A DNA stretch of 40,487 nt, taken from NCBI GenBank assembly GCA_012033015.1, contig JAAUPS010000015.1, forward strand, positions 1-40,487, in the 5' to 3' direction. Each line of letters begins with the position of its first letter. Positions within the stretch are counted from its first letter, which is position 1. Positions 395 through 40,487 of this stretch are shown here, in pieces. The stretch is from Phormidesmis sp. RL_2_1. GTDB lineage: Bacteria > Cyanobacteriota > Cyanobacteriia > Phormidesmidales > Phormidesmidaceae. A model generated the notes under the pieces. It saw nothing but the letters and a program-made list of their open reading frames with translations, ran no database searches and was not told where the DNA came from. The position numbers were made by a program, and so were the translations under genes.

Positions 395-581
395 ATATTC
401 TTGAGCTGGATATTCTTGAGCTGGATTTTGGGGTAATAGCTTTTTACAGCGCTGCTTTTTACAGCGCTGAATCCAGATCGATCAAAATCAGTTTAGCTAA
501 AATAGTTCATTTGAACTATTAAAATTTCAATCCTATCGCTTGCGCCACTTTGCTGATGTGAGCTGATGTGAGCTGATGTGA
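395..581. repeat. three short tandem duplications in a gene-free stretch
   Basis: The gene-free stretch 381-727 contains three unrelated tandem duplications. ATATTCTTGAGCTGG occurs twice (395-424), GCTTTTTACAGCGCT twice (439-468), and GCTGATGTGA three times (552-581). All copies are perfect. No convincing gene or terminator is visible in the rest of the stretch. Confidence 0.9.
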
Positions 582-727
582 CTTGCCGTAAATCCACACA
601 TTGAGCTTGAGCTGGCCTGCATCAATCGGTTTCTAAGCTGCTGTTGGAGAGAGTGCCACACCTATGGCATCCGCTCCTTGTTCGACCCGATTGGTGGGAC
701 TGGCTAATTTTGAACCGCACCAGCGGA

Positions 728-1466
728 TTAACGATTGATGGGCATGTAGGTTTCTTGAGTTTCTTCCATGCGCAGCGCTGAGGTCGCCATTTTGGTGGTG
801 TAAAACATTACCCCGATGGTGGTTGCAAGGCCAACGGCTTGAAAAAGCAAGTTTTCAGTTGGCTGCTTCAGGGTTAAAATGTTGGCCCCAAACGTCGCAA
901 TGTAGACATAGGTAAAAATAACGGGCAGCATTCCCAGCCAAGAAAAAAATAAATACTCCCAAAAGTCAATGCGAGTCAGGCTAAAGCCGTAATTGAGAAT
1001 ATTGGAGGGCAGTACAGGCGACAGCCGTGTGAGAAAAACAATCTTCCAGCCTTTTTGAGCAAAAGCACGATCAAACTTGTGAAACCGGCTGCTTTCTTTC
1101 ACCATGCTCGTAATCCAACGACGCCTAACGTTTGGCCAATCACAAAACAGGCTGCAATGCTCAGCGTATCGGCAATGGAAGCACTGATCACACCTTTGGT
1201 CAGACCAATAGGGTACCTGCTGCTAGCACCAATACGATATTGGGGAGGCCCAAAATGGCCGCCATAACGTAGATCGCAATAAATATCGGCAATGCCCAAA
1301 TGCCTTGGTCAGCCAGCCAGCTATGGGCTTGCGCGATTAAATCAATAAAAGGCACTTGACTGATGCACACGAGTAACAAGCTAATGATGGTTAATCCAGC
1401 CCACACTCGCTTTTTTCGTGCCCCTTTCCAAAGCACCGCCAAAAGCCATTGATAAGTCAACTTCAT
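728..1466 (-). CDS. TVP38/TMEM64 (SNARE-associated) family membrane protein, two frameshifts
   Basis: A polytopic inner-membrane protein of the TVP38/TMEM64 (VTT domain) family, related to DedA and thought to act in membrane homeostasis or transport. Three reading frames join into one protein of about 246 residues. An N-terminal membrane segment and LPNIVLVLAAGTLL come first (1466 to about 1205). Next is GVISASIADTLSIAACFVIGQ (to about 1120). Last is KGWKIVFLTRLSPVLPSNILNYGF, the family signature, written here as a hallmark of VTT proteins. Each junction needs one inserted base: GG to GGG near 1204 gives TLLGLTKG, and one C near 1119 gives TLGRRWITSM. Both halves are well conserved, so sequence error is more likely than decay. 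The next gene upstream is msrA. Confidence 0.8.
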
Positions 1467-1756
1467 ACGTGCTTTTAACCTTTGACAACTAAGCCGGGAT
1501 GTCTCAGCCCTTTACCGACACCCTGGTCTACAAGCGGTCGAGCATCCGTAATATCACTGTCAGCAGAATTACAGAGCATTATGCCACTGACTCCTCCCAA
1601 ACGCTTCTGCTGAATAAAACATTGATTGATAGTGCAGACGACAAAACCATTACTTATGTGCCAGTTAACCGATAACTTTTTTTGATGCTTTAGGCCATTA
1701 AGCATAGCCGTTCAACAGCATGTCCGTTTAACAGCATGGCCGGATTATGGCGGCTA
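1467..1756. other. intergenic stretch without a convincing gene
   Basis: Between the TVP38-type gene and msrA. A 76-codon reverse-strand frame (1475-1705) exists but has no recognisable motif or ribosome-binding site. A near repeat, TTCAACAGCATG / TTTAACAGCATG, lies around 1710-1738. I see no hairpin terminator. Confidence 0.5.
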
Positions 1757-2572
1757 CTAATGACTAGGGGCCTCTGCTCCCCAAAGATCAGAAAGTCGCT
1801 GGTCTCGTCCGCAGCCAAAGCGATAAACCTTATAGCGTACGGCATGGGTTTGGTAATAGTCTTGGTGATAGTCTTCAGCGTCATAAAACCTCGCTGCTGG
1901 CAAAATATCTGTGGCAATGGGCTGATCGAGCTGCTCAGCAATCTCGTTTTTAGAGGCTTCTGCTAATGCTTGCTGTTCGGCGGTGTCATAAAAAATCGCT
2001 GATCGATACTGGCTGCCTTGATCACAAAACTGGCCGCGATTATCCAGTGGGTCTATATTGTGCCAAAAGGTGGTCAGCAGTTTTTCGTAGCTGACTTGCT
2101 GAGGATCGTAGCGCACTTCCATGGCCTCTACATGACCCGTACTGCCGCCGGAAACTTCGGCGTACGTCGGATTTTCGACCGTTCCACCGGTGTAACCTGA
2201 TGTCGTTGACACTACGCCCGGAAGCTGATCAAAAGGCTGTTCCATACACCAGAAACAGCCACCAGCAAAGATGGCCGTTGATAGTTCAGGATCTGCGCTA
2301 GGACTGGCTGTGTTGGCATTAGCTGTGTTAGGGCTGTCTGTGTTAGGGCTGTCTGTGTTGGGAGTGCTGTTACCGGAGATGGCCAGGTCGGGTTGCGCCG
2401 TTGCAATCGGGGTTGCTGCATTTTGTTCGGCACCATTGATTTGCGTGCAGCCTAGCGCACTGAAGCTGATCATCAAGATGCTGAGACCGGCACAAAGCCG
2501 TTTTAAAAAACGCTGTCTTAAAAATACTTTGGTGGTAAATATTTGGATGGAGGGCTTTTGAATAACGGTCAT
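1757..2572 (-). CDS. msrA: peptide-methionine (S)-S-oxide reductase, predicted lipoprotein
   Basis: Reduces methionine S-sulfoxide in oxidised proteins. The catalytic motif GGCFWCME is present (nucleophile Cys116), as are GYTGGTVENPTY, STGHVEAMEVRYDP and the C-terminal YHQDYYQ. An N-terminal hydrophobic segment ends in a lipobox, SALGC with Cys42. That predicts a membrane-anchored enzyme on the periplasmic or lumenal side, unlike the usual cytoplasmic MsrA. Residues about 45-105 form a low-complexity Asn/Thr/Ser/Pro linker with tandem PNTDS units, encoded by a perfect 15-bp duplication around 2326-2360. There are further cysteines near the C-terminus (FGCGRD), usable as resolving cysteines. 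The length of 271 aa exceeds typical MsrA because of the leader and linker. Confidence 0.93.
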   Translation of the reverse strand: MTVIQKPSIQIFTTKVFLRQRFLKRLCAGLSILMISFSALGCTQINGAEQNAATPIATAQPDLAISGNSTPNTDSPNTDSPNTANANTASPSADPELSTAIFAGGCFWCMEQPFDQLPGVVSTTSGYTGGTVENPTYAEVSGGSTGHVEAMEVRYDPQQVSYEKLLTTFWHNIDPLDNRGQFCDQGSQYRSAIFYDTAEQQALAEASKNEIAEQLDQPIATDILPAARFYDAEDYHQDYYQTHAVRYKVYRFGCGRDQRLSDLWGAEAPSH

Positions 2573-2641
2573 GGTTTGCGATCGCCTCTTACATTAACGG
2601 ATGCTAGCTGCTGTCAAATCAAGGTCACGAGACGACGATTG

Positions 2642-4172: not shown

Positions 4173-4763
4173 CTACTGAGATACGGCTGGCCAGTTCTCA
4201 TCACCAGTGGCGATAAAGCCCGGTATATCTTTTTCCCACTGGCTTTGAACCTTTGAGTTGGCATTGAGATACAGTTTGCCATCAACGACCTTCCACGCAT
4301 TGGGATCTGTCGGGACTAATGCTTTTTTCGCTGCGATCGCCCAAGCACAAAAGCCACCGTACTGGGGCGCGTATTGCTCAGGGTTTTGGGCAAACGTATC
4401 GCGGTTTTCAGCGCTAGAAAACTGCCAGCTTGCGCCTTGCCACTCATAGGTATACTCGGCACTGCCCGGAACAAAAGCAGATTCGGTAAAGTAGGCAACG
4501 GCATCAGCGCCGCTAATTGCTACGCCGTCTTTGACATAGAGTGTGGCGTCTGCTGTTTCTGCACTGGCTGTTTCTGCACTGGCTGTTTCTGCACTGGCTG
4601 TTTCTGCACTGGCTGTTTCTGCACTGGCACCGTCAGTGCTAGGTGCTGTAACTGTTTCAGGCGGTGAACAGGCGGCTAAGCCTAAGGCCATGGCCGCAGC
4701 TCCGGCGAGCAAGGTGCCAGAAAGAGAACGGGATGGAAAAATTGACTTTGCTGAAATAGGCAT
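4173..4763 (-). CDS. YHS-domain lipoprotein with (ASAET)5 spacer
   Basis: A 196-residue exported protein. Residues 1-31 form a signal peptide ending in the lipobox LAAC (Cys32). Next comes a low-complexity linker with five tandem ASAET units, then a YHS domain (about 75-150). That domain has DGVAISGADAVAYF, WQFSSAENRDTFAQNPEQYAP and YGGFCAWA. YHS domains occur in metal-related and uncharacterised periplasmic proteins, and the conserved Cys of GGFCAWA may bind metal. The C-terminus has WKVVDGKLYLN and WEKDIPGF, typical of stand-alone bacterial YHS proteins. It is convergent with the P450 gene, whose stop lies 27 bp away. The exact role is unknown. Confidence 0.85.
   Translation of the reverse strand: MPISAKSIFPSRSLSGTLLAGAAAMALGLAACSPPETVTAPSTDGASAETASAETASAETASAETASAETADATLYVKDGVAISGADAVAYFTESAFVPGSAEYTYEWQGASWQFSSAENRDTFAQNPEQYAPQYGGFCAWAIAAKKALVPTDPNAWKVVDGKLYLNANSKVQSQWEKDIPGFIATGDENWPAVSQ
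4551..4630. repeat. 15-bp tandem repeat inside the YHS gene
   Basis: GCACTGGCTGTTTCT is repeated four times perfectly at 4561-4620, with partial copies on both sides. It encodes the ASAET repeats in the reverse frame. Copies identical at the DNA level imply recent expansion or homogenisation. Confidence 0.95.
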
Positions 4764-5241
4764 GTGAACTCAACTCAATGGGTAGTTTTAAAGGCTATGT
4801 AAATAAGTTAGGTGAATTGTATGAAGAAGAGATGAGAGCGACCTGTGAACTTCCTAAAACTGTTGATTACTCTGGCCGGGAGGCATTGGCTCACTGGCCT
4901 CAAATCGGCCTCAAAAGGTTGTGACAAATCAAAAGTAGTCACATAAACATAACCTGTTGAAAACGAAAACCCGCTCAATGGGATCAGTTCGCAGAATTCT
5001 CCAGACCAACTGCTATAGTCCTGTTGGCTCACAACAAAATTCTTTGAAATTTCTTCTGTGAAACCGTGTTTAGCGTGCCCTAGTTGGGTACTCATTAGCT
5101 GGGTACATTCGCTGAAGAAAGCATTTTACAAGGGCAAGCTGTAGACCAAAGACCTCACACATCTTGACGACTAGCAGCTTTTTAACCTCACACCCATCAG
5201 AGCCTGTCACTGTTCGCTGCACCTGCTCAATTGCCGAAGAT
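4764..5241. other. gene-free region between YHS and amidase genes
   Basis: A divergent promoter region for the YHS lipoprotein and amidase genes. A 95-codon reverse frame (4808-5095) has no family resemblance and I treat it as noise. No clear operator or -10/-35 pair was identified. Confidence 0.5.
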
Positions 5242-7077
5242 ATGAAATCTGTAATTCGCCGACTCACCACACTGACCGCCTTAACTGCTACGGCGTTAGG
5301 CGCCAGCGTGCTTGCATCCACAAGTGCCATGGCTCAAAACTATGGTCAGCAGCCCATCGCTGCTGACCGGGTGGTGGCCATTGCCGAACCGGTTTCCAAT
5401 GGTCGCTTTTATCGGCTGCTCATTTTGGAGCAGCTTTCAAATCAGCGGGCTTGTTTCTCTGAACGTGCAGGCACCCCGACTGTGATTGAACCACTACTGC
5501 TCAATTTTGATTTCTCGGGTATCTGTGGTCGTAGTTCTGACAGTAACGGTTATTCCGTCCGCGTCGGTAATGAAGACTTGAGTCGCCGCTACCGGCTGCA
5601 AATTACCCGTCGCGATGATAATTTGGTGCTGATTGCCTTACCTGGTGCCTTACCTGGACGGGGCAGTGATCTACCCGTGTTAGAAATTGGTCGCAGTAAT
5701 GGGGTCGCCAATGATTTTGTCAAGATCACGCTGGATCCAGGTTGGCAAATGAGCCGTAGAACCCTCAACGGTAGCGCTCAAAGTCATGTGTATCTCTCCA
5801 ATGATCAAAGTTTAGAGACCGTGATCGCCCAAGCGGGTGGAACCCGTCCTAGCCCTTCATCACCAGCGTCGCCATCACCAGCGTTGCCATCACCGGCTAC
5901 GCCTGCTGTTCCCAGGCCCGCTACGCCCACACCGGCTACGCCACCGATCATCGGCAGTGGCTCTTTGCCTGCACCGGGTGCTACACCTACGCCCAGTAGC
6001 GGTAGTGCTGATGGTCTTTCCTATCAGGTGATTGTGCCGAGTTCTTCAACGATTATGCGGACGCGGGTGCGTCAGGTTGCCTCTGATGCTTTTCTTACCG
6101 ATGTCAATGGCAATCGGGTGATTCAAGCGGGTCTTTTTCAAGAGCGAAATCGAGCTGATCAGCTGGTTTCGCAGCTTTCGAGCCAAGGCATTAACGCCCA
6201 AATTATTGAGGGGCGTCGGGCTATCCCATCACCGTCGAGCCCATCGGCAGGCACCCAGACCGCCTATCAGGTGATTGTACCTAATAGTGCTGCGAATATC
6301 CGCGATCGCGTTAGTGCAATTGAGCCTGGGGCTTTTCTAACCACCGTGAATGGCCAATCTGTGGTTCAAGCAGGGCGTTTTCTAGAGCGTGATCGCGCTC
6401 AACAGCTACAGCAACGCCTAGCCGATGCTCGCTTACCGGCCCAAATCATTGAAAGCTCTGCCCCTGTTGCCAGTGTGCCGATGCCCTCTACTCCTTCACC
6501 GTCTACTCCTTCGCCGTCTATTCCGCGTGCTCGTCAGGGTCAGCTCACCGTTGTGATCGATCCGGGGCACGGGGGCAGAGACCCTGGTGCTGTTGGCATC
6601 GGTGGCCTGCGCGAAAAAGATATCAATATCACCGTATCTCGTCGCATTCAGGCCAGTTTGCAAGCCCAGGGTATTAACGCTCTATTGACCCGTTCTGACG
6701 ATCGTGAAGTCGATCTCGATCCTCGGGTTGTATTTGCTGAGCGAGCCGATGCCGATATATTTGTCAGCATTCATGCCAACGCCATCAGTTTGAGTCGCCC
6801 TGAGGTGAATGGCTTAGAAACGTATTACTATTCCTCTGGTTTGCGCTTGGCGCAGACGATTCAAAATGCTGTTTTACAGCGCACCGACTTGCGCGATCGC
6901 GGTGTGCGCCGTGCTCGGTTTTATGTCCTAGTCAACACTTCCATGCCTGCCGTGCTGGTGGAAACTGGCTTTGTCACGGGTAGCGAAGATGCCGCTCGCT
7001 TTAGAAATCCTGATGCCGTTAATGCTATCGCTGATGGCATCACTGCGGGTATCCTGCAGTATCTAAACGTTCGCTAG
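5242..7077 (+). CDS. N-acetylmuramoyl-L-alanine amidase (DUF3747, two SPOR-like repeats, Amidase_3)
   Basis: An exported cell-wall hydrolase that cleaves the amide bond between muramic acid and the stem peptide. The ATG at 5242 begins a signal peptide ending near AMA|QN; the longer upstream frame would bury it. Residues about 30-190 match DUF3747 (LLILEQLSNQRACFSE, LLNFDFSGICGRSSDSNGYS). A Pro/Ser/Thr-rich linker follows, then two homologous SPOR-like units, each starting YQVIVP and ending near QIIE. The Amidase_3 domain occupies about 434-610, with zinc ligands His443 (DPGHGG), Glu458 (REKD) and His511 (SIHAN), and catalytic Glu574 (LVETGF). The linkers carry 15-bp in-frame tandem duplications. 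It is probably monocistronic, with a hairpin 40 bp after the stop. AmiC-like function is inferred. Confidence 0.93.
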   Translation: MKSVIRRLTTLTALTATALGASVLASTSAMAQNYGQQPIAADRVVAIAEPVSNGRFYRLLILEQLSNQRACFSERAGTPTVIEPLLLNFDFSGICGRSSDSNGYSVRVGNEDLSRRYRLQITRRDDNLVLIALPGALPGRGSDLPVLEIGRSNGVANDFVKITLDPGWQMSRRTLNGSAQSHVYLSNDQSLETVIAQAGGTRPSPSSPASPSPALPSPATPAVPRPATPTPATPPIIGSGSLPAPGATPTPSSGSADGLSYQVIVPSSSTIMRTRVRQVASDAFLTDVNGNRVIQAGLFQERNRADQLVSQLSSQGINAQIIEGRRAIPSPSSPSAGTQTAYQVIVPNSAANIRDRVSAIEPGAFLTTVNGQSVVQAGRFLERDRAQQLQQRLADARLPAQIIESSAPVASVPMPSTPSPSTPSPSIPRARQGQLTVVIDPGHGGRDPGAVGIGGLREKDINITVSRRIQASLQAQGINALLTRSDDREVDLDPRVVFAERADADIFVSIHANAISLSRPEVNGLETYYYSSGLRLAQTIQNAVLQRTDLRDRGVRRARFYVLVNTSMPAVLVETGFVTGSEDAARFRNPDAVNAIADGITAGILQYLNVR

Positions 7078-7908: not shown

Positions 7909-8046
7909 TCGGCCTCAGTAACTGACGTCGTTACATTGATTGCCTCGCTGCTAGCATTAAAAACTTTCATCTGACTTGCAAAACTGTCCAAAAAACTAGC
8001 TAAAGTAAAGGAACGTTAACTTTCATAAATTACAGGGCCGTTGGCT

Positions 8047-9231
8047 ATGCGCGTACTTTTGATGACTGGAAAAGGTGGGGTGGGTAAAACCTCCGTCGCG
8101 GCAGCAACCGGCCTACGCTGTGCAGAAGTTGGTTATAAAACCTTGGTGCTGAGCACTGATCCGGCGCACTCCTTGGCAGACAGCTTCGATACCGAACTTA
8201 GCCATGATCCAAAAGAAATCAAGCCCAATTTGTGGGGCGCAGAACTCGATGCTTTGCGCGAACTAGAAGGCAACTGGGGTGCAGTAAAGCGCTATATCAC
8301 TCAGGTATTGCAGGCTCGGGGCCTAGAAGGCATTGAAGCCGAAGAACTCGCAATTTTACCGGGGATGGATGAAATTTTTAGCCTTGTGCGCATGAAGCGT
8401 CATTACGATGAGGCTGAGTTTGACGTTTTAATTATTGATTCTGCCCCAACGGGCACAGCCCTGCGGCTGCTGAGCTTGCCGGAGGTCGCAGGCTGCGTAT
8501 ATGCGCAAACTATATAAGCCTTTTCAGGCCGTTTCGACTGCGCTGCGTCCTTTGGTTGAGCCCTTGTTTCGCCCGGTGGCAGGGTTTTCTTTGCCAACGA
8601 AAGAGGTGATGGATGCGCCGTATGAATTTTATGAGCAGCTAGAGGCGCTGGAGAAGATTTTGTCTGATCCGACCATTACGTCCGTGCGGCTAGTGACGAA
8701 CCCTGAAAAATGGTGATTAAAGAGTCTCTGCGGGCCCATGCCTATCTGAGCCTTTATAACGTGGGTACCGATATGGTGATAGCCAATCGGATTATTCCTG
8801 AAACGGTCAGCGATCCATTTTTTCAGCGTTGGAAAGATCAGCAGACCAAGTATAAGCAAGAAATTCATGACAACTTTCACCCCCTGCCGGTGAAAGAAGT
8901 GCCGCTTTATTCTGAAGAAATGTGTGGCTTAGAAGCGCTACAGCGTCTCAAAGAGACACTGTATGGCAATGAAGATCCCGCTCAGGTGTATTACAAAGAA
9001 ACCACGCTTAGGGTAGTGCAATCAGCCGATAGCTATAGCTTAGAGGTTTATTTGCCGGGTATTCCGAAAAATCAGGTGGAGCTGAGCAAAACTGCCGATG
9101 AGCTCAATATTCGTATTGGCAATCATCGCCGTAACTTAGTGCTGCCTCAAGCCTTGGCTGCGCTTCAGCCTGCAGGGGCCAAAATAGAAGACGATTATCT
9201 TAAAATTCGTTTTGCTACGGCGCAGGGATAG
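8047..9231 (+). CDS. ArsA/Get3-family ATPase, Get3d type with C-terminal alpha-crystallin-like domain (two frameshifts)
   Basis: A P-loop ATPase of about 394 residues after joining three frames. Seen: the deviant Walker A GKGGVGKT near the N-terminus, [12 protein letters not shown], and [16 protein letters not shown]. The second segment holds [13 protein letters not shown], and the third [20 protein letters not shown]. The C-terminal ~85 residues ([26 protein letters not shown]) look like an HSP20/alpha-crystallin fold. That domain, with no obvious cysteine-based TRC40 insert, matches Get3d, a cyanobacterial and plastid clade whose client is not settled. Frame breaks: an extra C near 8498 (restoring AGWYMRK) and a missing A in the A5 run at 8706-8710 (restoring NPEKMVIK). 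The ATG at 8047 is preferred over the TTG at 8041. Confidence 0.9.
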
Positions 9232-11655: not shown

Positions 11656-12876
11656 GTGACTCAATCCCCCATCGAGCCCCCTAATGATCCTCGTCGTTCT
11701 GACGCTCGCCCTCCAACACCGCCCGCGATCGGCCCTAGCCGCCCCCTAACGTTTGATGAAATGGTGGCGTTGTTAGTGGCATTTTTGTCTTTGGGCAGTG
11801 TCCTATTTTGGGGGCTTAGCCGAAATCAGATGAGTTTCCTGAATAATTCGTTGGTGAGTATTAGCCCGCCTGTGGCTTCTTCAGAAGTAGCACCCGAATC
11901 ATTACCTGAATCATCATTCGATACCGCGACCGATGGGTCAGATTTGCCAGATCCCTCTATTTCAGCTCGCGGTGAAGGCGTTACTGCTCCTTTGTCAGCT
12001 CGCGAGGAACTCGCTGCTCGCACAGCCGAGAGGCGCAGGGGTGCGTCACCTCGGCGGCTATGGGATGACATGAGAGCAGGGGTCGCTAGTGCAGCGGCTG
12101 GAATTGCAGGGGTTGCTGCTACCTCGGAAGAAGCAGAAGCCTTGCCAGATGCTGGCACCACCGTTCCTGGCACCACCGTTCCTGGCACCACCGTTCCTGG
12201 CACAGTAGATCAGACAGCTCCGCCTGCCGCCGCCCCTTCTTCTACTTTGACGCTCTCTGAAGCTGCCACTGCCACCCCTCAAGCCGCGCTCCGCTTTGAC
12301 GATGTGCCTGATAACTATTGGGCTAAGCCCTATATTGATGCTTTGACTAGCCGTGGTCTGATGTCTGGTTTTGCAGAAGGTGACTTTCAGCCTGAGCAAG
12401 CTGTTACCCGTGCTCAAATCGCAACGGTTGTTGCCAATACTTTTGACTTAACGGCGGAGAAGGAAAATCTGGAATTTTCTGATGTGCAAGGCGATTACTG
12501 GGCCAGAGAATCCATTGGCGAAGTGGTAAAAGGTGGGTTTATGACCGGTTTTCCTAACGGCACCTTTGAGCCAAATACACCCGTTACCCGCGCTCAAGCG
12601 TTCACGACCTTGGTCACGGGGCTAAAGGTCGCAACGCCCAACAACGTTCAGGCTGCCCTGTCGCGCTATACCGATGCCAATGCAATTCCGAACTGGGCTA
12701 ATGAAAAAGTGGCTGCGGCGACGGCTAGCAGCTTTGTCGTGAACTACCCAAACTTAGAACAGTTAAACCCTAACAAACCGACAACGCGAGCTGAACTTGC
12801 CGTGATGATCTATCAGGCGCTTGTCAAAGAAGGGGCGGTTGAGCCGATGGCTTCTGACTATGTCGTGAAACCTTAA
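11656..12876 (+). CDS. S-layer homology (SLH) domain protein, membrane anchored
   Basis: A 406-residue envelope protein with a GTG start. A proline-rich cytosolic head (1-35) precedes one transmembrane helix (about 36-55, MVALLVAFLSLGSVLFWGL). A long low-complexity region follows, with three tandem TTVPG units. The C-terminal half holds three SLH repeats: FDDVPDNYWAKPYIDAL with TRAQIATVVA; FSDVQGDYWARESIGEV with TRAQAFTTLV; and a third ending TTRAELAVMIYQAL. SLH domains bind secondary cell-wall polymers or peptidoglycan. In cyanobacteria, similar TM-SLH proteins are common envelope components. It is probably monocistronic. Confidence 0.9.
   Translation: MTQSPIEPPNDPRRSDARPPTPPAIGPSRPLTFDEMVALLVAFLSLGSVLFWGLSRNQMSFLNNSLVSISPPVASSEVAPESLPESSFDTATDGSDLPDPSISARGEGVTAPLSAREELAARTAERRRGASPRRLWDDMRAGVASAAAGIAGVAATSEEAEALPDAGTTVPGTTVPGTTVPGTVDQTAPPAAAPSSTLTLSEAATATPQAALRFDDVPDNYWAKPYIDALTSRGLMSGFAEGDFQPEQAVTRAQIATVVANTFDLTAEKENLEFSDVQGDYWARESIGEVVKGGFMTGFPNGTFEPNTPVTRAQAFTTLVTGLKVATPNNVQAALSRYTDANAIPNWANEKVAAATASSFVVNYPNLEQLNPNKPTTRAELAVMIYQALVKEGAVEPMASDYVVKP
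12152..12199. repeat. 15-bp tandem repeat, in frame in the SLH gene
   Basis: GGCACCACCGTTCCT occurs three times in direct succession, encoding GTTVP units, followed by a truncated fourth copy. Confidence 0.92.
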
Positions 12877-12934
12877 GCGTGAAACCTTAAGCGCAACCTT
12901 AGATCGGCAGCCTTAATCATAAAGGCGCACGTTT

Positions 12935-13558: not shown

Positions 13559-13939
13559 GGAAATCGCTGGATATTTTGGAACTGGTGGCTGAGTTTACGT
13601 ACAGGGCTGAGTGGAGAGCTGATCAGTGGCCAAGGCTATCAGTGGCTATCAGTGGTCAGCGCGATCGCTTCAAAAAACTTAAACCTGCATTCATGATCAA
13701 TACTGGCGTGTCTCCATATCCCATGTCAATTCAATATTTACGGGATAACCTGTTAAACAGCGATGATTAGGTGGCAACACTGTCTTGAGCACGACAATGT
13801 TCACGTAGTCTTTATCAAAATCAATCAGCCAAATCAATGAGTAAATGTCATCCCAGTAAATGTCATCCCAGTAAATGTCATCCCAACGCAAACGCGATAT
13901 TGCCCCTAGCCTATGAGCCCCACTAGCATCAGCCATGTA
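13559..13939. other. gene-free stretch with 15-bp tandem repeat
   Basis: AAATGTCATCCCAGT is repeated three times at 13843-13887, the last copy imperfect. Near repeats of CTATCAGTGG lie at about 13633-13655. A 79-codon reverse frame (13697-13936) reads through the repeat as WDDIY units; it starts directly beside the terminator hairpin and has no known homology that I recognise. No firm gene. Confidence 0.7.
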
Positions 13940-14772: not shown

Positions 14773-14830
14773 TCAACAAGACAGGCATCCTTCTGATCAA
14801 GCTGATCTAAGGTGATGTCTGTCTTGTTGA
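14773..14830. repeat. long inverted repeat between rpsF and the coiled-coil gene
   Basis: Arms 14773-14789 and 14814-14830 are complementary at 16 of 17 positions around a 24-nt loop. It lies about 90 bp beyond the rpsF stop. There is no long T-run, so it may be a terminator, a processing site or a mobile-repeat remnant. The rest of the 14585-14918 gap holds only this and the neighbouring tandem repeat. Confidence 0.7.
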
Positions 14831-14880
14831 GAACGGATGGGTTGATTGAGAACGGATGGGTTGAGAACGGATGGGTTCAG
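14829..14880. repeat. 15-bp tandem duplication
   Basis: TGAGAACGGATGGGT occurs three times, the first two separated by TGAT and the last two adjacent, directly abutting the inverted repeat. Confidence 0.85.
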
Positions 14881-23256: not shown

Positions 23257-23356
23257 TGGCTGCGGCGATTCTGTGGGGATAGTGCTGTTTGCAGAGGTGC
23301 GGTAAGAGCAAGGTGCAGGCTTTTGCGATGGCATTGGGCAATCCAGCTAGCCATCA

Positions 23357-23398: not shown

Positions 23399-23414
23399 TG
23401 ATTTTCTGCCAGCC

Positions 23415-25487: not shown

Positions 25488-25490
25488 GCT

Positions 25491-28275: not shown

Positions 28276-28280
28276 TCGCT

Positions 28281-28355
28281 GAGCGTGACGAATCTAAGCG
28301 TGACGGATCTGATTTTGACGAATCTGATTTTGACGAATCTGAGCGTGACGGGGCT
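28281..28355. repeat. 15-bp duplications between convergent genes
   Basis: CTGATTTTGACGAAT is repeated directly, flanked by several AGCGTGACG-like copies. It lies between the stops of the CHAT gene and the FAD oxidase gene. Confidence 0.8.
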
Positions 28356-29761: not shown

Positions 29762-30320
29762 TGCTAACGAATAGCGGTGTGCACAAAAGATAGCTCAAAA
29801 ATGAGTTGGCATACTTGAATTGAAGTACTTCTACGGTGGGAAAATCCTGGTGTATTGACATCATTGGTGAGTAAGGCCATGGCTTTATACGGCTTTACCT
29901 TGTACTCACCTGTCGTCTTGATACCGTCATGATACCGGCTAATTCTATTGTTCCTATTGCTACTTTTCCGCTCTGGCAGTACTTAAGTCAGCCTATTGGT
30001 CAGCGCGATCGCAAGTTGATTATCAATCCTAGGAAGTTTTGGCATGTGCAAAAAGTGCACTATATAGAGCGCTGCTGGGTGATGTCTTACACCCCTGAAG
30101 AGTGGACACATTAGGCACAGTAAGCGGTAAGGTGGCCCCTTGCAGTGCCCTACCACCACCTGAGCAGCGGCTACAGAGCGCCGATGAAGCGCCGATTAAG
30201 TGCCGATTAGCCGATTAAGCGCCAATTATGCCAATGATACAGAGCGTCCCTGACAGCGCGTCCCTGACAGCGCGTCACTAACTTAGAGGGTTAACTTAGA
30301 GGGTTAACTTAGAGGGTTAA
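29762..30320. other. gene-free region between FAD oxidase and second CHAT gene
   Basis: A rightward 61-codon frame (29929-30114) has no recognisable motif. The right part is repetitive: several GCGCCGATTA-like units (30178-30225), a duplicated GCGTCCCTGACAGC (30244-30270), and TAACTTAGAGGGT three times (30279-30317), reaching the CHAT stop. No terminator is evident. Confidence 0.7.
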
Positions 30321-32855
30321 CTAGAGCGTTTGGCTCAGTTCTGCTTTGGCTTTGTCCCAATCGGCGATCGCACTGCCTAGCCACAGCCAGTTATCTCCCA
30401 GGGAATTGGCATTAAACTCAGTCGGTGCTTCGTCAATCACTTTGAGATAGGCGGCTGAGGCTTGTGCCAACAGTCGATTGCGCTCATCGGCATTGGCCTC
30501 AATTTTAGCCATAGACAGTGAGACCATCGCCAACCCCGCATAGGCGTTGAGGATATACTGACTCACGGGCTGCTCAGAAAAATACATATTCGCATTGGGC
30601 TGCTTTTTGGCAAGTGCGATCGCCCGCTCCCAAGCGGCTAAAGCTTCTTCTTCTTTGCCGACCGCATACTGGGCAAAGCCAAGCGCCATCGATATTTCCA
30701 TCCAATCAGGCTCATTTTTTAAAGACGCCAACCAAGAACGTCTGGCATCATCGGGGGAAAAATTGCTATCGCCTTGCTTGGTCAGGCCCCATTGAGCGCG
30801 GCCACGTAAGAAGGAGACAATCACATCGTTTTGTTGCGTAGGATTGGCACTTTTTAAGGCTGTGATTGCCGCAGAGAATTGCCCTTGATCAATTAATGCC
30901 TTGATCGCAGAAGCCGCAACGTCTAATTCATTTTGGTTGAAGGCGACTTCTATTTGAGCAGGTAAACCGGCTGCGTTCAAGACCAGTGGGGCATCGGCAA
31001 TAGCTGGTTGGCGGCTGCGTTGCAACCAGCTTACGGTCGTGATACCCAAAATCACGATCAGGGCCATGCTGGCCAGTCCAGGCATAGTTAAAAGCTTCGT
31101 GTGTAGGGTGTGGCTGCGGTTGAGCCGTTCGCCCACGAGTATTTCTGAAGGTGCGCTTGAAGGTGCTTGAACCTGAGGAGGTTGTGGTGACTGACTTAAG
31201 TTGGTGGCATTAGGTGCCATTCCCTGTTCTCCGTAAAATCCAGTGGTCGTCTCAATTGCTTCAGGTAGGTGCACCGCCGTTTCAACCGATATTAACGGGG
31301 TTGAGTTTTCTTTTACTACGGTTGTTGTCGTCTGTACATCGTGGTTATTGACTAAGTTATTGACGGCATTAACACCGATAGCATCAGCTTGGGTCGGGTT
31401 AGTTGGGCTGTCAGTGATGGTGGTGCGATTACTTGCTTGATCCGGCTGATCCGGTTGATCAGGGTAGGTCAGTAGTGCCCCTGAGCCTATGACGCCGACA
31501 GCGCCAACAGCACCGACAGGTATCTCCGCTCGAGGTGCTGGCAAGTCAATTTCAGCCAGTCCTGGTTCAGAGAACATGCCGCCAAAAGGATCGTTGGCAG
31601 CGTCTAAAGCACGAGGATTTTCCATAGGATGGCTGCGATCGCCTGCTACTTGCACCAAATAGCCATCGAAAGCAGGTTGCATATACAGCGTCGGCAATGC
31701 CCAGTAAAACTGGTGTGAGCCGTAAGCTGAAATCAAACCTTGACGAGTTCGATTCAAGCTGAGATCAATCGCCTGTCCCTTTTTCAGATTGCGATAGAGC
31801 AACTGAGTAAAGGTAATCGCCACATGATCAGGAATGCGCTCAGTCATCGCAATGACAGCAGGCACACCGCGGTTGACGAGCGCCTGCGCTAAATTGCGCG
31901 CTTGCCATCCCTGCTCTGTGCTAGCGCTATAGCCCCCCCGGCAGGAGTTAAACACCGCCAGCTTAATGCCATTGTTAACCAACAACCCAGCTAAATCTTC
32001 ACCGCTCAGCCGCTCCGTCAGGCCAGTTTGGCGGCTAACCAAGTAAAGATCGCCCCCAGCATTGCCTAAATTGCTGTGGCCCGCATAGTGCAGCACCTGA
32101 TAGTTGCCGCGATCTAGCTCTTGAGTCAGTTCTGCTCGCCCTGGCTGCTCAAGGATTTTGAGCTGAACATCCAGCACCGTATTGTTGTTATGGGTGTCTG
32201 CTTTCTCAGGATGGAGTTCACCTTGAAGATGGTAAGCCTCTTGCTTGAGCTCTAGCCGTTCTTGATCATCTGGCGAGGCAATGACCATCAAAATTCGCAA
32301 CCCCTGACTCGGCTCACTGATTTTGAGCTGGCCTGAGTGACCCTGCCGTCGATCTAGAATGTAGCGAGAAAAAATCACATCAGTGCCCGTTGCCAAAGGT
32401 CTTGTTCCGGCATGGAGCGCTTCCCAGGGAAGCTGCTGTAAGCGATTGTCTTTCATGCCAATGCGTAATCGCAATAGCGCCTGACGGTTTTGGGCAACGC
32501 CTTGGGCTGTGATCCAACTATCGTGCAACTGCCCTTGAAAGAGCTGATTGTGTAAGGCTTGTCCGAGGTGAACTAGGGTGGTGGCATCGATATCTGAGAG
32601 CGGGGGCTGTTGCTGCTGCTCGCTCTGGCCCATACGGGATTGTTGCAAGGTATGGCGTGGCTGCCCTTGCAGAAGGCCCAGCAGTGGATCGTGCATCAGC
32701 GCTTTGGTTTGCTCCAGCCATTGGGTGACAGGCCAATGAACTTTTTCTTCAGCGAGCTGCACGCCTTTAGCTACAGTCTCTGTGCGTACTAAATACTGGT
32801 CGTTGCCGACGGCAGTGATGGATATTTCAAATTCCTGAATCACGGCTGTTCTCAT
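30321..32855 (-). CDS. CHAT caspase-like protease with transmembrane helix and C-terminal TPR-like region
   Basis: 844 residues. The N-terminal part (1-180) includes a helical region and QQLPWEALH. The CHAT domain (about 185-395) holds the catalytic His260 (HYAGHSN) and Cys305 (FNSCRGG), followed by VPAVIAMTERIPDHVAITF and HQFYWALPTLYM. A long low-complexity linker (405-585) carries PDQ repeats. One transmembrane helix lies at about 591-611 (GLASMALIVILGITTVSWL). The C-terminal 200 residues have TPR-like helices (EISMALGFAQYAVGKEEEALAAWERAIALA). This predicts a single-pass protein with the protease and TPR parts on opposite sides of the membrane. CHAT-TPR proteins are frequent in cyanobacteria; the substrate is unknown. 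The frame is intact. ATG start, with AAAGGG adjoining. Confidence 0.9.
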   Translation of the reverse strand: MRTAVIQEFEISITAVGNDQYLVRTETVAKGVQLAEEKVHWPVTQWLEQTKALMHDPLLGLLQGQPRHTLQQSRMGQSEQQQQPPLSDIDATTLVHLGQALHNQLFQGQLHDSWITAQGVAQNRQALLRLRIGMKDNRLQQLPWEALHAGTRPLATGTDVIFSRYILDRRQGHSGQLKISEPSQGLRILMVIASPDDQERLELKQEAYHLQGELHPEKADTHNNNTVLDVQLKILEQPGRAELTQELDRGNYQVLHYAGHSNLGNAGGDLYLVSRQTGLTERLSGEDLAGLLVNNGIKLAVFNSCRGGYSASTEQGWQARNLAQALVNRGVPAVIAMTERIPDHVAITFTQLLYRNLKKGQAIDLSLNRTRQGLISAYGSHQFYWALPTLYMQPAFDGYLVQVAGDRSHPMENPRALDAANDPFGGMFSEPGLAEIDLPAPRAEIPVGAVGAVGVIGSGALLTYPDQPDQPDQASNRTTITDSPTNPTQADAIGVNAVNNLVNNHDVQTTTTVVKENSTPLISVETAVHLPEAIETTTGFYGEQGMAPNATNLSQSPQPPQVQAPSSAPSEILVGERLNRSHTLHTKLLTMPGLASMALIVILGITTVSWLQRSRQPAIADAPLVLNAAGLPAQIEVAFNQNELDVAASAIKALIDQGQFSAAITALKSANPTQQNDVIVSFLRGRAQWGLTKQGDSNFSPDDARRSWLASLKNEPDWMEISMALGFAQYAVGKEEEALAAWERAIALAKKQPNANMYFSEQPVSQYILNAYAGLAMVSLSMAKIEANADERNRLLAQASAAYLKVIDEAPTEFNANSLGDNWLWLGSAIADWDKAKAELSQTL

Positions 32856-33677
32856 CCCTTTGATATGTACGCTGGGATAGTCTCAAGCGCGAGCTGAGTG
32901 CACCGCCTTGTAAAACAATCCTTCAAGCCACTGCCAATCGGCCTACTCACAACTATTTTAGGCACTTTCATCAAGCCTTGTACCCGTAGATCGGCCCTGT
33001 ACGGAGTAAACTTTGATGCTTGAGACGATACTAAGGCTATCTCCCTAGTATTTATCGTAGAGATCGACAATTTGATTGCTCAACTCAGTTAGGACAGTTG
33101 TCAGCTTGCCCACCTGTTGTGCCCTAGCTTTGACTAACCAAGCACCAATTCATGATCTGGTAAATCCTACGGATAGCTTACCCGCCATTTCTTCCACAGC
33201 AGGCACCCTTGACTTAATGTTCAGGTTTTTTGCCTCTAAGCCAGCTCTATGCAAAGGGCCAGCCGTCCATCTGTCACGTAGTTACGGACAAGGATGCTCA
33301 TGCTCGTCAAGGCTTCTAGCGTTGGCGTAGCTCTTCGAGGAGAATGACTATGGTCCTGACTACCTCGACAGAAGCTATAGCCCAGTCATAATGACAACTC
33401 TGGTCATTAACTCTGGCTACTAAAGTTTGGCTACTAAAGTTTGGCTACTAAAGTTTGGCTGTTACAGTTTGGTGCTCATTTCTGGACTTAAGTACGTGTC
33501 TTTATGCTCGTTAAGCAAATCTTAAAACTCTATAGCTAAAGGCATATTTATTCCCAGGGGCTGCTTTCGCTTGGCTTATCTGATTTAAGCTGTGTAAACA
33601 AATAAAGACTTTTCTACATCTAAATATTTCTTTTCTCATACTTTTGTTGAACTGGTCTTCAAGCCAGCTTTGTTAAA
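32856..33677. other. long gene-free region with repeat remnants
   Basis: An 820-bp region lacking a convincing gene. It contains a degenerate dispersed repeat (33088-33381) and a 14-bp tandem repeat, GGCTACTAAAGTTT three times at 33415-33456. The last 100 bp before the MFS gene are AT-rich. Short frames at 32852-33070 (reverse) and 33076-33330 (forward) show no recognisable domain. Confidence 0.6.
33088..33381. repeat. possible MITE-like or transposon remnant
   Basis: The segment 33298-33381 matches 40349-40413 in reverse orientation, sharing AAGGCTT, GTCCT-ACT and CTCGACAGAAGCTATAGC, with a ~22-bp gap. Left-end GTTAGGACAGTTGTC (33088) and the reverse of GACTATGGTCCTGAC (33346) agree at 11 of 15 positions, as imperfect inverted ends. 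No open transposase was found. Confidence 0.45.
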
Positions 33678-35085: not shown

Positions 35086-35270
35086 TGCTCGTTTGCTTTG
35101 ATGGCCTGTTTTCAATTGTCTGTTCTCAGATGCTCAGGGCAGGCACTAGGATCAGCTCTAACGAAGCTCTAACGCAGCTTTAACAATGCAGCTTTAACAA
35201 TGTTGAGCGACAAGTCAGTCACTGTCCAGCTACAATCTGGATGACACTGTAGCTGTTCATTTGTACTATT
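35086..35270. other. intergenic stretch with 14-bp duplication
   Basis: GCAGCTTTAACAAT is repeated directly around 35174-35201, preceded by the related CTCTAACGAAG/CTCTAACGCAG. It sits between the MFS and helicase genes. Confidence 0.7.
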
Positions 35271-37685: not shown

Positions 37686-38071
37686 GTCTATGAAATGAAA
37701 ATAGGTCTATATCGCAAAGTCAGAATGCATCCCTACTTTGCGAGTCGAGTTAGCCGCTGCTATAGCGTGTGCCGGATGCATAACGCCGACGGCGAGGCTG
37801 CGCCAGCGGGTACAAGCGCGTCGCTTGGCCTGTTGTCACGTAGAGGCTTCAGCCAGCGCGTGCCGTACCTCAGCCAAGCGACCAAAGCTATGTACAAGGG
37901 CTTCGTCACCTGCTTCAAAATTTATCGCTTTATTGGGATAGAGCTTATCGGGACAGAGATCTGCTCAGTATGAATACGCTTGAATACGCTATAAACACAT
38001 TGCCCCACTCAATGCACTGCAAAACCTCGCACTGCAAGATCTCGCACTGTAAAACCTCGCACTGCAAAATC
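37686..38071. repeat. gene-free repetitive region
   Basis: Contains GCACTGCAAAACCTC four times with small changes (38014-38073, running into the GNAT stop), a duplicated TGAATACGCT, and duplicated AAAATAGGTCTAT. Inverted segments GTCGCTTGGC (about 37819) and GCCAAGCGAC (about 37875) could form a stem. GC-rich with scattered palindromes; a 92-codon forward frame (37695-37973) lacks a clear homology. Possibly relics of a dispersed repeat. Confidence 0.7.
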
Positions 38072-38560
38072 TCAGAGGCTTTTGCAATAAACCTTATCGC
38101 AGCGCTCTGTTGTTATCCCGCTCATCGGTCGATAGCCATTTTTTTCGTATAGCTTAACCGCTGCTGACAAAGCTGTGGCCGTCTCTACCCAAACTTCTTT
38201 AAAGCCTTTGTCTGTTGCAGCTTGCTCTAGCTGAGTCAATAAAAAACGGCCCAAGCCATAGCCCCGAGCATCTGGCAGCAGATACATTTTGCGAACCTCA
38301 ACGGCCCGATTACCCCGAGTAATCGGATAATAGCCGCCGGTACCGACAATTTGACCTGAGCGCTCAATCACCCAAAACTCGCCGCCAGCTTCCCAATAGT
38401 ACTTTTCAACGTCTACAACGTCCTGATCGCTACAGCCGCCGCAATCGACTTCCCAGCTCAAGTCGTACTCAACGAGGACGGTTTTGACAACGTCTGCGGC
38501 TGCAGTGCGATCGCCTACGCTCCAATCTCGAATCAAAAAATCCTTAAATTGTTGCCGCAT
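38072..38560 (-). CDS. GNAT family N-acetyltransferase
   Basis: A 162-residue GCN5-related acetyltransferase. The acetyl-CoA-binding motif A is VRKMYLLPDARGYGLGRFLL (R-x2-G-x-G form), followed by the motif B-like ETATALSAAVKLYEKNGY. The N-terminal half carries a short Cys cluster, VDCGGCSD, and WVIERSGQIVGTGGY. The substrate is unknown. It starts 12 bp after the miaE stop and is probably translationally linked to it. Confidence 0.9.
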   Translation of the reverse strand: MRQQFKDFLIRDWSVGDRTAAADVVKTVLVEYDLSWEVDCGGCSDQDVVDVEKYYWEAGGEFWVIERSGQIVGTGGYYPITRGNRAVEVRKMYLLPDARGYGLGRFLLTQLEQAATDKGFKEVWVETATALSAAVKLYEKNGYRPMSGITTERCDKVYCKSL

Positions 38561-39229: not shown

Positions 39230-39311
39230 ATATTTGGTGAAATATTTATTTGGTGAAATATTTGATGAAAAATATTTTAAGCGATCTGGTGTTCAGCAGT
39301 TTGTCAGCGGT

Positions 39312-39797
39312 CTAGGCGTCGGTTTCCAACATATCGACCCTCAACGCACCAGCCTTCAGCGACTGACGCAAGTGCCGCACTAGCCCTTCTAGACCTAAGC
39401 GATAGCTATCTGAGCCAAAGCCGCTAATTTGGCCAACGGCTATCGGGGCGATATAAGAATGGTGCCGAAAAGCTTCTCGCTGATGAATATTACTGAGATG
39501 CACCTCTACCGTGGGAAGGGCTACAGCCGCTAGGGCATCTCGAATGGCCACGCTGGTGTGAGTGTAAGCACCCGGATTAATCAAAATGCCCTGATGGCGA
39601 CTCAAGGCTGCTTGAATCTCATCCACCAGGGCACCTTCATGATTGGATTGAAAAAAGGTCAGAGTAATATCCAAAGACTCTGCCATTTGCAATAACGCTT
39701 GATTAATATCTTGAAGTGACTGAGAACCGTAGACTTCAGGCTCTCGCTTGCCCAACATGTTTAAGTTAGGGCCATTCAGGACAAGAATACTCAGCAC
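39312..39797 (-). CDS. aroQ: type II 3-dehydroquinate dehydratase
   Basis: Catalyses reversible dehydration of 3-dehydroquinate to 3-dehydroshikimate in the shikimate pathway. 161 residues, full length. Diagnostic: [20 protein letters not shown] at the N-terminus, [51 protein letters not shown] and [11 protein letters not shown]. Tyr23 (in EVYG) and His102 (in VEVHLSN) are the probable catalytic residues. GTG start. It is preceded 15 bp upstream by a 45-aa gene and followed by miaE. Confidence 0.97.
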
Positions 39798-39812
39798 AAT
39801 AGTGTGTCAATA

Positions 39813-39950
39813 CTAACGACGACGATTTCGGTCATCTACAGGAATAGGAATAGGCTCACGTTCAGGCTGCGCTTCTGGCCCAAACAAGGCATCCATAATC
39901 CGGTCAACTAATTCTCTGAGCTTCTCTAGAACCTGATCGATATAATCCAT
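39813..39950 (-). CDS. 45-residue small protein upstream of aroQ
   Basis: An ATG at 39950 opens a 45-codon frame ending 15 bp before aroQ. The product starts MDYIDQVLEKLRELVDRIMD (amphipathic helix), then ALFGPEAQPEREPIPIPVDD, ending in RNRRR. The order helix, acidic and proline-rich stretch, basic tail reads like a real small cyanobacterial protein, not random. No function known. I infer it is the first gene of the aroQ-miaE-GNAT transcript. Confidence 0.65.
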   Translation of the reverse strand: MDYIDQVLEKLRELVDRIMDALFGPEAQPEREPIPIPVDDRNRRR

Positions 39951-40487
39951 GAGCTAGATTGCTCCCTCTCATATTTTGGAACATGTATTCTGAAAATGGT
40001 AACTCTTCAGATGGCCGAAACCGCTGGCGAGTTTGGGCTGGCAAGTTTAGATATCACCGCCATCTAGCAACCTCAGCGAAAAATCGAAAGTTAAAATCGA
40101 AAATTGTCGCGCGAAGATCGCCACGTTATGTATTTATGATAACCAATTGAGACGAATGATCAAGGTGACCTTGGGCAAATTTACATAATCTCCTGTATTT
40201 CTTTAGAACATTGAACCCTGCTGTGTATAGCTATAGCGGTTATATGGTGCGCTTTGATCCCTACCTATGAGGTTTTTGGTAGGTTGGGTGCGGTTTTTGA
40301 TAGGTTGGGTGCCATGGGCCAGCATGATTGATGCCAGCATCTGCGTCGCTATAGCTTCTGTCGAGTGAGTTAGGACAATTAGTAATCGCTGAAAGCCTTG
40401 ACTAGCATCAGCACACTCGACGAGCAGCGGTGAGACCCTGCGTCGTCGTACGGCGCTAAGGAAAGCTCACCAAGACAGCGGTGAGAC
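39951..40487. other. right-edge gene-free region with repeats
   Basis: A 63-codon forward frame (39959-40150) lacks features. A 21-bp unit is duplicated with one mismatch at 40271-40312; each copy ends in AGGTTGGGTGC. The segment 40349-40413 is the second, inverted copy of the degenerate repeat at 33298-33381. GCAGCGGTGAGAC recurs near the end (about 40423 and 40475), showing that a repetitive element continues past the window. Confidence 0.6.

Follow-up and report, generated by a model that had tools for sequence, protein, structure and literature searches.

Tandem duplications in wild cyanobacterial genomes bear a one-sided boundary motif that points to topoisomerase I

The window, namely, the whole 40,487-nt stretch of Phormidesmis sp. 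RL_2_1 DNA that was analyzed, contains 19 exact tandem arrays with a unit of at least 11 bp (12 bp, one; 13 bp, one; 14 bp, five; 15 bp, nine; and 16, 17, and 19 bp, one each), two of which overlap at 14827–14877. No array with such a unit appeared in windows simulated by 50 order-2 or 60 order-3 Markov runs. All 11 example loci named as tandem duplications in a first-pass annotation are tandem arrays; eight are exact, with at least two full copies each, and three are imperfect according to TRF (2635–2666, 94%; 17596–17663, 83%; 38014–38073, 84%). The units were judged by eye to be unrelated to one another, and we agree with that annotation in disfavoring a mobile repeat family, favoring instead a mutational mechanism confined to lineages.

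Exact intergenic arrays with a 15-bp unit (2.1 copies each) lie at 395–426 and 439–469, and three exact copies of a 10-bp unit lie between genes at 552–581. The peptide-methionine-sulfoxide-reductase ORF (1757–2572, minus strand) contains an exact 15-bp array of 2.5 copies (2323–2359, minus strand), and the imperfect array at 2635–2666 (15 bp, 2.1 copies) corresponds to the locus annotated earlier as 2642–2671. The YHS-domain gene (4173–4763, minus strand) carries 5.1 exact copies of a 15-bp unit at 4552–4628 (minus strand), and its relative in genome G001 carries a 12-bp array of its own in the aligned region. Two exact 12-bp copies at 5634–5657 (plus strand), within the DUF3747/amidase gene (5164–7077), may be an ancient duplication or an inherent trait of this protein, because the G001 relative aligns gap-free to a near-copy. 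The exact 15-bp array of 3.5 copies at 12152–12203 (plus strand), within the SLH-domain gene (11656–12876), is missing from the G001 relative (17 versus 0 amino acids; 44% identity).

Further exact arrays were found at a gene end (12864–12893; 14 bp, 2.1 copies), between genes (13840–13885; 15 bp, 3.1 copies), in the overlapping pair at 14827–14877 (19 bp, 2 copies; 15 bp, 2.1 copies), and in a short putative ORF at 17134–17430 (17178–17211; 17 bp, 2 copies). The cluster at 17543–17663 comprises 10-bp (2 copies), 14-bp (2.1 copies), and imperfect 14-bp (4.9 copies, 83%) arrays, and a 14-bp array of 4.1 copies (23348–23404) separates the VKOR gene, which ends at 23256, from an ORF at 23415–23747. 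The exact array at 25511–25543 (15 bp, 2.2 copies, plus strand) was classed as intergenic by greedy ORF choice despite lying inside ORF 25491–26174; this ORF has a pentapeptide-repeat match, and the array is possibly ordinary protein periodicity because pentapeptide repeats lead to a 15-bp period anyway. The other intergenic arrays lie at 28279–28350 (15 bp, 4.8 copies, 82%, with an exact core at 28307–28342), 30239–30330 (two adjacent arrays, 14 bp with 2.7 copies and 13 bp with 4.1 copies), 33414–33472 (14 bp, 4.2 copies), 35174–35202 (exact, 14 bp, 2.1 copies), and 39231–39263 (exact, 16 bp, 2.1 copies). TRF reads 38014–38073 as four 15-bp copies (84%) or, alternatively, two 30-bp copies (93%). 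Arrays appear to cluster in places within the window, for example, at 30177–30330.

The arrays are spread genome-wide, with 274 in 556 kb sampled, and extrapolation gives approximately 2700 for G000. For the density counts of the final survey, heptamer-like arrays and arrays over 30 bp were left out, and arrays explicable by a period of 9 bp or less were removed; at Microcoleus, Tychonema, and Okeania loci, repeats with a 7-bp period appear as 14- or 21-bp arrays. Filamentous cyanobacteria are known for heptameric short tandem repeats (STRR), which have 7-bp periods. Like STRR, the present arrays are short tandem repeats that abound in some cyanobacteria, but they are not heptameric, with units peaking at 12 to 15 bp after the removal of periods up to 9 bp, and their units differ. 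Densities among sister species ranged from 40 down to 2 arrays per 100 kb, and a high load recurs in Elainella and Pegethrix. The pattern had been expected to be rarer in other cyanobacteria; most of those sampled do have far fewer arrays, but comparable densities are reached by a small number that are unrelated (Elainella, Pegethrix, RM1_2_2, and J069). No array was present in two pieces of E. coli K-12 DNA of 50 kb each, and Nostocales plasmids contained one in a total of 250 kb.

The genome-wide check of unit lengths, which the first-pass annotation had proposed, did reveal a peak. Between genes, the lengths form a bell at about 10 to 17 bp, which holds 158/173 (G000), 192/196 (G001), and 34/36 (G058) of the intergenic units of 10 to 30 bp; in this comparison, units shorter than 9 bp may in part reflect chance. 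The size range is thus narrow, as had been claimed, but genome-wide it is about 10 to 17 bp rather than 13 to 15 bp. In G000, 86 of the 97 units of at least 10 bp within genes were multiples of 3, compared with 57 of 175 between genes (Fisher, 3 × 10−20), and in-frame units within genes numbered 86/97, 92/112, and 25/32 in three genomes. The excess of 12- and 15-bp units in genes is reading-frame selection and not enzyme geometry, and genic units account for the peaks at these two lengths. The same bias bears on the origin of the arrays as assembly artefacts in a fragmented genome bin. The assembly of the window's genome comprises 436 contigs with 7% contamination and contains single-base frameshifts, but errors would give no preference for the reading frame, and several separately deposited genomes show the same pattern; we consider an artefact extremely improbable.

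We then compared the number of extra matched bases at the junctions with the number expected if no homology were required. Of 133 clean two-copy intergenic arrays, the 101 with zero to three extra bases were distributed as 55/23/16/7, against an expectation of 57.7/28.8/10.8/3.6, which the counts slightly exceed at two and three bases. The remaining 32 arrays have 4 to 13 extra bases, which a single event does not explain. Founding events are thus mostly independent of microhomology. In the 46 arrays from low-density genomes, lengths are similar and extra bases likewise few, which means that the high-density genomes do not stand out by their lack of microhomology; no C peak at −4 of the boundary (see below) was seen in this small set. 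Direct repeats with 1- to 4-nt spacers are also in excess, with a faint C peak (0.29).

These counts bear on whether the duplications arise by ordinary slippage of replication between short direct repeats in strains with weak repair. Slippage surely adds copies between existing ones, because arrays of three to eight copies are frequent (139/664 in three genomes), and it is also favored by the 32 clean arrays with at least four extra bases. However, the near-expected counts at zero to three extra bases argue against it as the founding process, and slippage yields neither the length bell nor the one-sided boundary motif described below; we regard it as an unlikely origin. Homology-free two-copy duplications also resemble the target-site duplications of a transposon that duplicated its target and then left, but lengths varying over 10 to 17 bp and copy numbers of up to eight make such footprints a very improbable source.

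An EM search of the array boundaries gave a weak motif, T−5 C−4 H−3 W−2 T−1 followed by A0 (TCHWT↓A, the arrow marking the boundary), with a log-likelihood of 129.0 compared with 75.1 ± 8.8 for 15 matched null sets. Without EM, the frequency of C at −4 was 0.35 versus 0.22 (334 boundaries of 167 duplications); it was again 0.35 in a held-out imperfect set (228 boundaries of 114 duplications), whereas the other held-out set, consisting of 46 duplications that have two or three extra bases, gave just 0.28 versus about 0.25 nearby. At least four of the five consensus positions were matched in 23/167 exact and 11/114 imperfect duplications versus approximately 5% at other offsets; in G058 to G061, this count was 4/55 and not significant (p = 0.19). 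The published E. coli topoisomerase I motif, TCNTT↓A, had its highest mean score at offset 0 among 25 offsets in 5/5 subsets, with a thin margin in G001 (2.25 versus 2.23). The published motif was compared only after TCHWT↓A had been derived, the preference for C at −4 being already known by then.

The motif is carried by one boundary only. Scores of the left and right boundaries were correlated at −0.29 at the true boundary, compared with 0.01 ± 0.10 for the matched null and −0.15 to 0.14 at other offsets. C at −4 alone occurred at both, one, and none of the boundaries in 11, 60, and 43 cases, a split that by itself is compatible with two-sidedness too. The first-pass annotation had proposed staggered cuts or nicks followed by fill-in; as considered here, the nicks would fall on opposite strands, 10 to 17 nt apart, with filling of the 5′ overhangs and blunt joining. 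The little microhomology and the narrow length range would suit such paired nicks, as would fillers of 1 to 4 nt that may be present at some junctions. By contrast, a one-sided motif with anticorrelated scores is unlike two cuts by one enzyme, and Ku was found in 0/18 genomes, on which ground Ku-dependent NHEJ was rejected; this reading, too, seems to us unlikely. What survives of the proposed staggered cuts 14 to 15 nt apart is that a nick is probably followed by the recopying of about 14 nt and sometimes by expansion, but not the pair of equivalent cuts with end joining.

The neighbors of the C raised another explanation, the repair of dipyrimidine photolesions, in which a strand is displaced after an excision-repair incision and the resulting flap is joined; the flap length could account for the 10 to 17 nt. 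Enrichment of C at −4 was confined, in the discovery set, to sites beside another pyrimidine, and in the held-out data it was likewise strongest in pyrimidine contexts. However, RCR was also raised there (16.5 versus 11.7), T at −4 was below average, so TT lesions are not followed, and 15/15 genomes encode the 5′ nuclease domain of PolA. A UV-lesion origin of C at −4 was dropped on the held-out data and the one-sided topoisomerase match, and we give it little credence. Among other candidates, loss of the PolA 5′ nuclease and of the large subunit of ExoVII (encoded in 15/15) were rejected, and a primase-site reading was discarded on reasoning alone.

An E. coli topA R168C mutant forms de novo tandem duplications of 2 to 19 bp independently of repeats, with mutational hotspots and by a mechanism that its authors call unknown (PMC6954433), the cleavage motif of E. 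coli topoisomerase I is TCNTT↓A (PMC9352719), and C at −4 is a preference common to characterized bacterial TopAs (PMC12445093). The mutant's duplications and the cyanobacterial arrays are alike in being head-to-tail, up to 19 bp, and repeat-independent; the former stem from a laboratory point mutation, whereas the latter occur in wild genomes with R168 intact in 21 spanning sequences, as a load accumulated in evolution, with a 10- to 17-bp bell and, on one side only, a boundary motif that resembles a cleavage site. Likewise, C at −4 is common to topoisomerase I sites and array boundaries, but the former are mapped cuts of the E. coli enzyme and the latter a weaker motif (TCHWT↓A) at mutation boundaries. 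In yeast, trapped topoisomerases also cause indels, Top1 deletions and Top2 duplications, but these enzymes belong to other classes and the indels are much shorter. None of the literature matches listed (titles and abstract openings, with subscription journals thinly covered) concerned natural topoisomerase-linked tandem duplication in cyanobacteria.

What we observed directly is the density of the arrays, their distribution among lineages, the length bell, the scarcity or absence of microhomology, and the one-sided motif. From these we infer an enzyme and an order of steps: the duplications are probably made by a DNA topoisomerase of type IA (topoisomerase I) that cuts and, after extension, rejoins. 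The topoisomerase would nick one strand after TCNWT, the C being at −4 relative to the cut, and remain attached to the new 5′ end. A polymerase would extend the free 3′-OH over the next 10 to 17 nt, displacing the enzyme-held strand, and the topoisomerase would then seal the held 5′ end onto the lengthened 3′ end, so that two copies lie head to tail; no homology would be required. One boundary would be set by the cleavage preference and the other by the extent of extension. Later slippage between copies would create arrays of three or more; all lengths would survive between genes and mainly multiples of 3 inside them.

A second, divergent TopA (type X TopA2) is present in 12 of 85 genomes. The 85 comprise the G-handle genomes and those of 80 named loci, except that L097, L122, L127, L135, and L143 (short contigs) were unclassed, L098, L103, and L159 were also left out, and a genome reached via two loci was counted once. 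Type X genomes have a median of 17.8 arrays per 100 kb, none being at zero, compared with 0.0 for 40 genomes with type Y or intermediate TopA2 and 4.8 for 33 without TopA2 (Mann-Whitney, 2 × 10−6 and 3 × 10−5, respectively), although 5 of the 12 (4.8–9.3) overlap the class without TopA2 (0–15.1). In hand-picked neighbor pairs, with G001 excluded from the Phormidesmis pair, the type X genome was denser in 7/7, three of them at p < 0.01, and PGLS on type X gave p values from 0.005 (lambda 1) to 1.5 × 10−9 (best lambda, 0). A reciprocal type Y search covered 48 genomes, namely, 12/12 type X and 36/40 type Y or intermediate.

The cut-off of the bacterial topoisomerase I family TIGR01051 (456.4 bits) is exceeded by two full TopA2 proteins, at 546 and 534.5 bits, and the broken G000 piece scores 410.5 bits. 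TopA2 has Toprim and Topoisom_bac domains and the ITYMRTDS motif with the catalytic tyrosine; Toprim_C_rpt was not found in it. An R168 substitution, considered as a cause, was rejected because R168 is kept in 21/21 cyanobacterial sequences covering that position (9 canonical and 12 TopA2; the C252 row does not reach it). TopA2 is altered in the −4 C pocket (R169 and R173), changes that might weaken the C preference; the canonical TopA could be the cutter instead. Type X TopA2 is only a candidate causal enzyme because G001 has a high density (40 per 100 kb) with type Y only, the class was drawn once the densities were known (with L152 borderline, 68 versus 63%), and X-like genes (66–70%) occur in at least 29 genomes of family f28, to which the hosts of the nearly array-free Nostocales plasmids may belong. 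That type X TopA2 acts across the genome in several cyanobacterial lineages as a natural writer of tandem duplications, an evolved heritable mutator, is therefore put forward only tentatively.

These genomes bear on how tandem repeats originate from nonrepetitive DNA. They offer hundreds of natural events in sampled DNA, with boundaries fine enough to reveal the preference of the cutter, whereas comparable events are otherwise known to us from the E. coli laboratory mutant. The arrays point to topoisomerase I and a specific model of cutting, extension, and rejoining, with strains and a gene named. If this is true, a housekeeping enzyme family would be a lineage-specific source of repeats, of protein length variation, and of intergenic change; if type X TopA2 is the writer, it would seed short repeats from nonrepetitive DNA, giving rise to in-frame protein repeats and altered intergenic regions.

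The window is a complete contig (C358) of the 5.56-Mb Phormidesmis sp. RL_2_1 genome, which is in 436 contigs, and its gene content is cyanobacterial in appearance. TRF returned 68 rows for it, and 19 exact tandem arrays with a unit of at least 11 bp and at least two full copies were present; simulated sequence (50 order-2 and 60 order-3 runs) contained no such arrays. Density, defined as exact arrays of unit ≥11 bp per 100 kb after removal of small-period repeats, was 49.2 in RL_2_1 (274 arrays, 556,474 bases) and 40.3 in P. priestleyi Ana (317 arrays, 787,298 bases). Other genomes of the same genus gave 25.3 (P. priestleyi ULC027bin1), 8.4 (cf. Phormidesmis LEGE 11477), 8.3 (Leptolyngbya BC1307), 6.7 (a further genome, G002), and 2.1 (L. 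foveolarum ULC129bin1). The pattern appeared again in Elainella sp. Prado103 (53.6), Pegethrix bostrychoides (21.5), RM1_2_2 (24.1), and J069 (21.1), which were first spotted via 20-kb loci and afterwards sampled for more DNA, and E. coli K-12, sampled in two stretches of 50 kb, contained no arrays. Extrapolation from the sample gives approximately 2,700 arrays for the whole RL_2_1 genome. The arrays are genome-wide and lineage-specific. Numerous 14- and 21-bp arrays were also seen at loci from Microcoleus, Tychonema, Okeania, and others (L138, L148, L153, L157, L166, L167, and L170); these were mostly heptamer repeats that vanished once small periods were removed, and the density of one genome (G062) fell from 15.6 to 6.7 when heptamer-like arrays were removed. 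Density surveys must leave such repeats out.

Intergenic unit lengths were bell-shaped, with means (SD; 10–30 bp units) of 13.9 (3.0) bp in RL_2_1, 13.3 (2.4) bp in P. priestleyi Ana, and 13.9 (2.1) bp in Elainella, and units of 10 to 17 bp accounted for 158 of 173, 192 of 196, and 34 of 36, respectively. At 8 and 9 bp, where chance repeats start contributing, the counts dropped to 7 and 15 in RL_2_1 and to 12 and 22 in P. priestleyi Ana, versus 28 and 33 at 13 bp. With genes assigned by a plain greedy longest-ORF choice, units of at least 10 bp were divisible by three in 86/97, 92/112, and 25/32 genic arrays of the three genomes, compared with 57/175, 64/196, and 11/36 intergenic ones, and intergenic density (152, 133, and 150 per 100 kb) was approximately 5 to 8 times the genic density (21, 16, and 28 per 100 kb). 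A relative spanning the region was available for 21 of 207 coding arrays. At least one unit was missing from the relative in 10 of these (table read by eye); in the other 11, including window position 5634, where the aligned P. priestleyi Ana sequence is a near-copy of the repeat, the relative was of similar length or the region had diverged. Where a YHS-domain protein aligns with its P. priestleyi Ana counterpart, the 15-bp array at window 4552–4628 and the 12-bp array in that relative (L231:14135) are separate repeats within one tolerant region. Two other window genes, for an ArsA-type ATPase (8041–9231) and a cytochrome P450 (2753–4145), were each broken across two reading frames; no tandem array (unit ≥6 bp) was found at the breaks searched, which points to sequencing error or genuine decay. 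Two CHAT-domain genes, one carrying pentapeptide repeats, lie at 25954–28275 and 30321–32855.

Microhomology was assessed in 133 clean two-copy intergenic arrays from five high-density genomes. Zero, one, two, and three extra matched bases beyond the copies were found in 55, 23, 16, and 7 arrays, versus 57.7, 28.8, 10.8, and 3.6 expected without homology; apart from a slight surplus at two to three bases, the two sets agree, so microhomology slippage is not the origin of most founding events. The remaining 32 arrays had 4 to 13 extra bases, suggesting repeated events at a single place. The 46 arrays of low-density genomes likewise had few extra bases, and little microhomology alone is therefore no marker of the high-density genomes. 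Copy number rises after founding: three genomes contained 525 arrays of two copies, 105 of three, and 34 of four to eight. Direct repeats of 11 to 18 bp with a 1–4 nt spacer were in excess in RL_2_1, P. priestleyi Ana, and Elainella (21, 22, 13, and 13, respectively, for the four spacers, versus approximately 3 at spacers of 8–26) and are perhaps junction insertions or end substitutions.

An EM run over both boundaries with shift ambiguity reached a log-likelihood of 129.0, versus 75.1 ± 8.8 in 15 matched null sets, and its one-site model was T(−5) C(−4) not-G(−3) W(−2) T(−1) before the boundary and A(0) after it. Counted without EM, C at −4 had a frequency of 0.35 versus 0.22 (z 5.5; 167 duplications, 334 boundaries), with 0.37 in RL_2_1, 0.31 in P. 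priestleyi Ana, and 0.41 in other genomes. The value was also 0.35 in 114 imperfect duplications kept out of discovery and was 0.28, versus approximately 0.25 at nearby positions, in 46 duplications with two or three extra bases; no C peak at −4 was seen at 54 boundaries from low-density genomes. C at −4 is a topoisomerase trait. Published studies place in vivo cleavage by E. coli topoisomerase I within TCNTT|A, with the cut falling four nucleotides after the C (PMC9352719), and describe C at −4 as common to characterised bacterial TopAs via an R169, R173, and Y177 pocket (PMC12445093). This consensus, which is that of the E. coli enzyme, was scored at 25 offsets after our own motif had been obtained, and its mean score was highest at offset 0 in the exact, held-out, RL_2_1, P. 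priestleyi Ana, and remaining-genome subsets, with a thin lead in P. priestleyi Ana (2.25 versus 2.23). At least four of the five positions matched in 23/167 exact (p = 9e-6) and 11/114 held-out duplications (p = 0.02), compared with approximately 5% at other offsets; in the remaining genomes, 4/55 duplications at four of five positions was not significant. Left and right scores were correlated at −0.29 at the true boundary (114 duplications). Matched random positions gave 0.01 ± 0.10 (1/300 equally low), and the correlation at other offsets ranged from −0.15 to 0.14. The motif is confined to one of the two boundaries.

A single cut chosen by sequence, a second end of variable position, and independence from homology fit a type IA topoisomerase model. 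The enzyme would cut one strand at the chosen site, retain the 5′ end while the free 3′ end is extended, and rejoin the ends, with a variable second boundary 10–17 nt away and no homology required; we infer this order of steps. The closest known parallel is the E. coli topA R168C mutant, in which, according to one report, half of galK mutations are de novo tandem duplications of 2–19 bp that do not depend on existing repeats, by a mechanism described there as unknown (PMC6954433). The kind of event is already known from this mutant; among the literature titles listed, none dealt with its natural, lineage-specific, genome-scale occurrence, a cleavage-like boundary, or a candidate paralogue.

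Canonical TopA kept R168, R169, R173, and Y177 in all nine rows read. Many genomes also encode a second, shorter TopA (TopA2); two full proteins tested passed TIGR01051 and lacked Toprim_C_rpt repeats, and in 12 rows read R168 was kept, R169 was replaced by T/S/A or D, and R173 by K. In RL_2_1, canonical topA and TopA2 are each frameshift-split, and a third TopA2 copy, adjoining a transposase-like ORF (recognised by eye), has decayed (L266 on C44, L267 on C17, and L268 on C252); these defects are either sequencing errors or real.

TopA2 was divided into types X and Y by identity to queries from Elainella and P. priestleyi Ana, with type X, the candidate enzyme, having at least 68% identity to the former and being at least 5 points closer to it than to the latter. 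Among 85 genomes, 12 had X, 40 Y or an intermediate, and 33 none, with median densities of 17.8, 0.0, and 4.8 per 100 kb, under a class boundary set after the densities were known and a query taken from a high-density genome. Pooled rates, from btpA-flanking DNA only (the whole window for RL_2_1), were 25.3, 2.8, and 4.1. No X genome had zero density (0/12), and five of the 12 (4.8–9.3; three on one array each) were within the none-class range (0–15.1). Type X was dispersed over the BtpA tree, with nine changes, of which well-supported branches require at least four (the bootstrap was still unsettled), and the X member was denser in 7/7 neighbour pairs hand-picked from this tree (three at p < 0.01; P. 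priestleyi Ana omitted from the Phormidesmis pair, locus L152 in no pair). PGLS on the FastTree BtpA tree gave t 6.8 with lambda at its best value (0) and t 2.9 (p = 0.005) with lambda set to 1. P. priestleyi Ana has high density with type Y alone. In a phylum sample, the X query had matches at E ≤ 1e-150 in 34/386 genomes. One family, f28, accounts for 30 of these genomes, with 66–70% identity in 29 and a broken copy of 59% identity in the other. Five 50-kb stretches of plasmids from three genera of Nostocales, the order to which f28 may belong, contained one array, and X-like genes may well be insufficient for high density. Type X as the cause is a lead; the topoisomerase mechanism rests on the boundary evidence and stands independently of type X.
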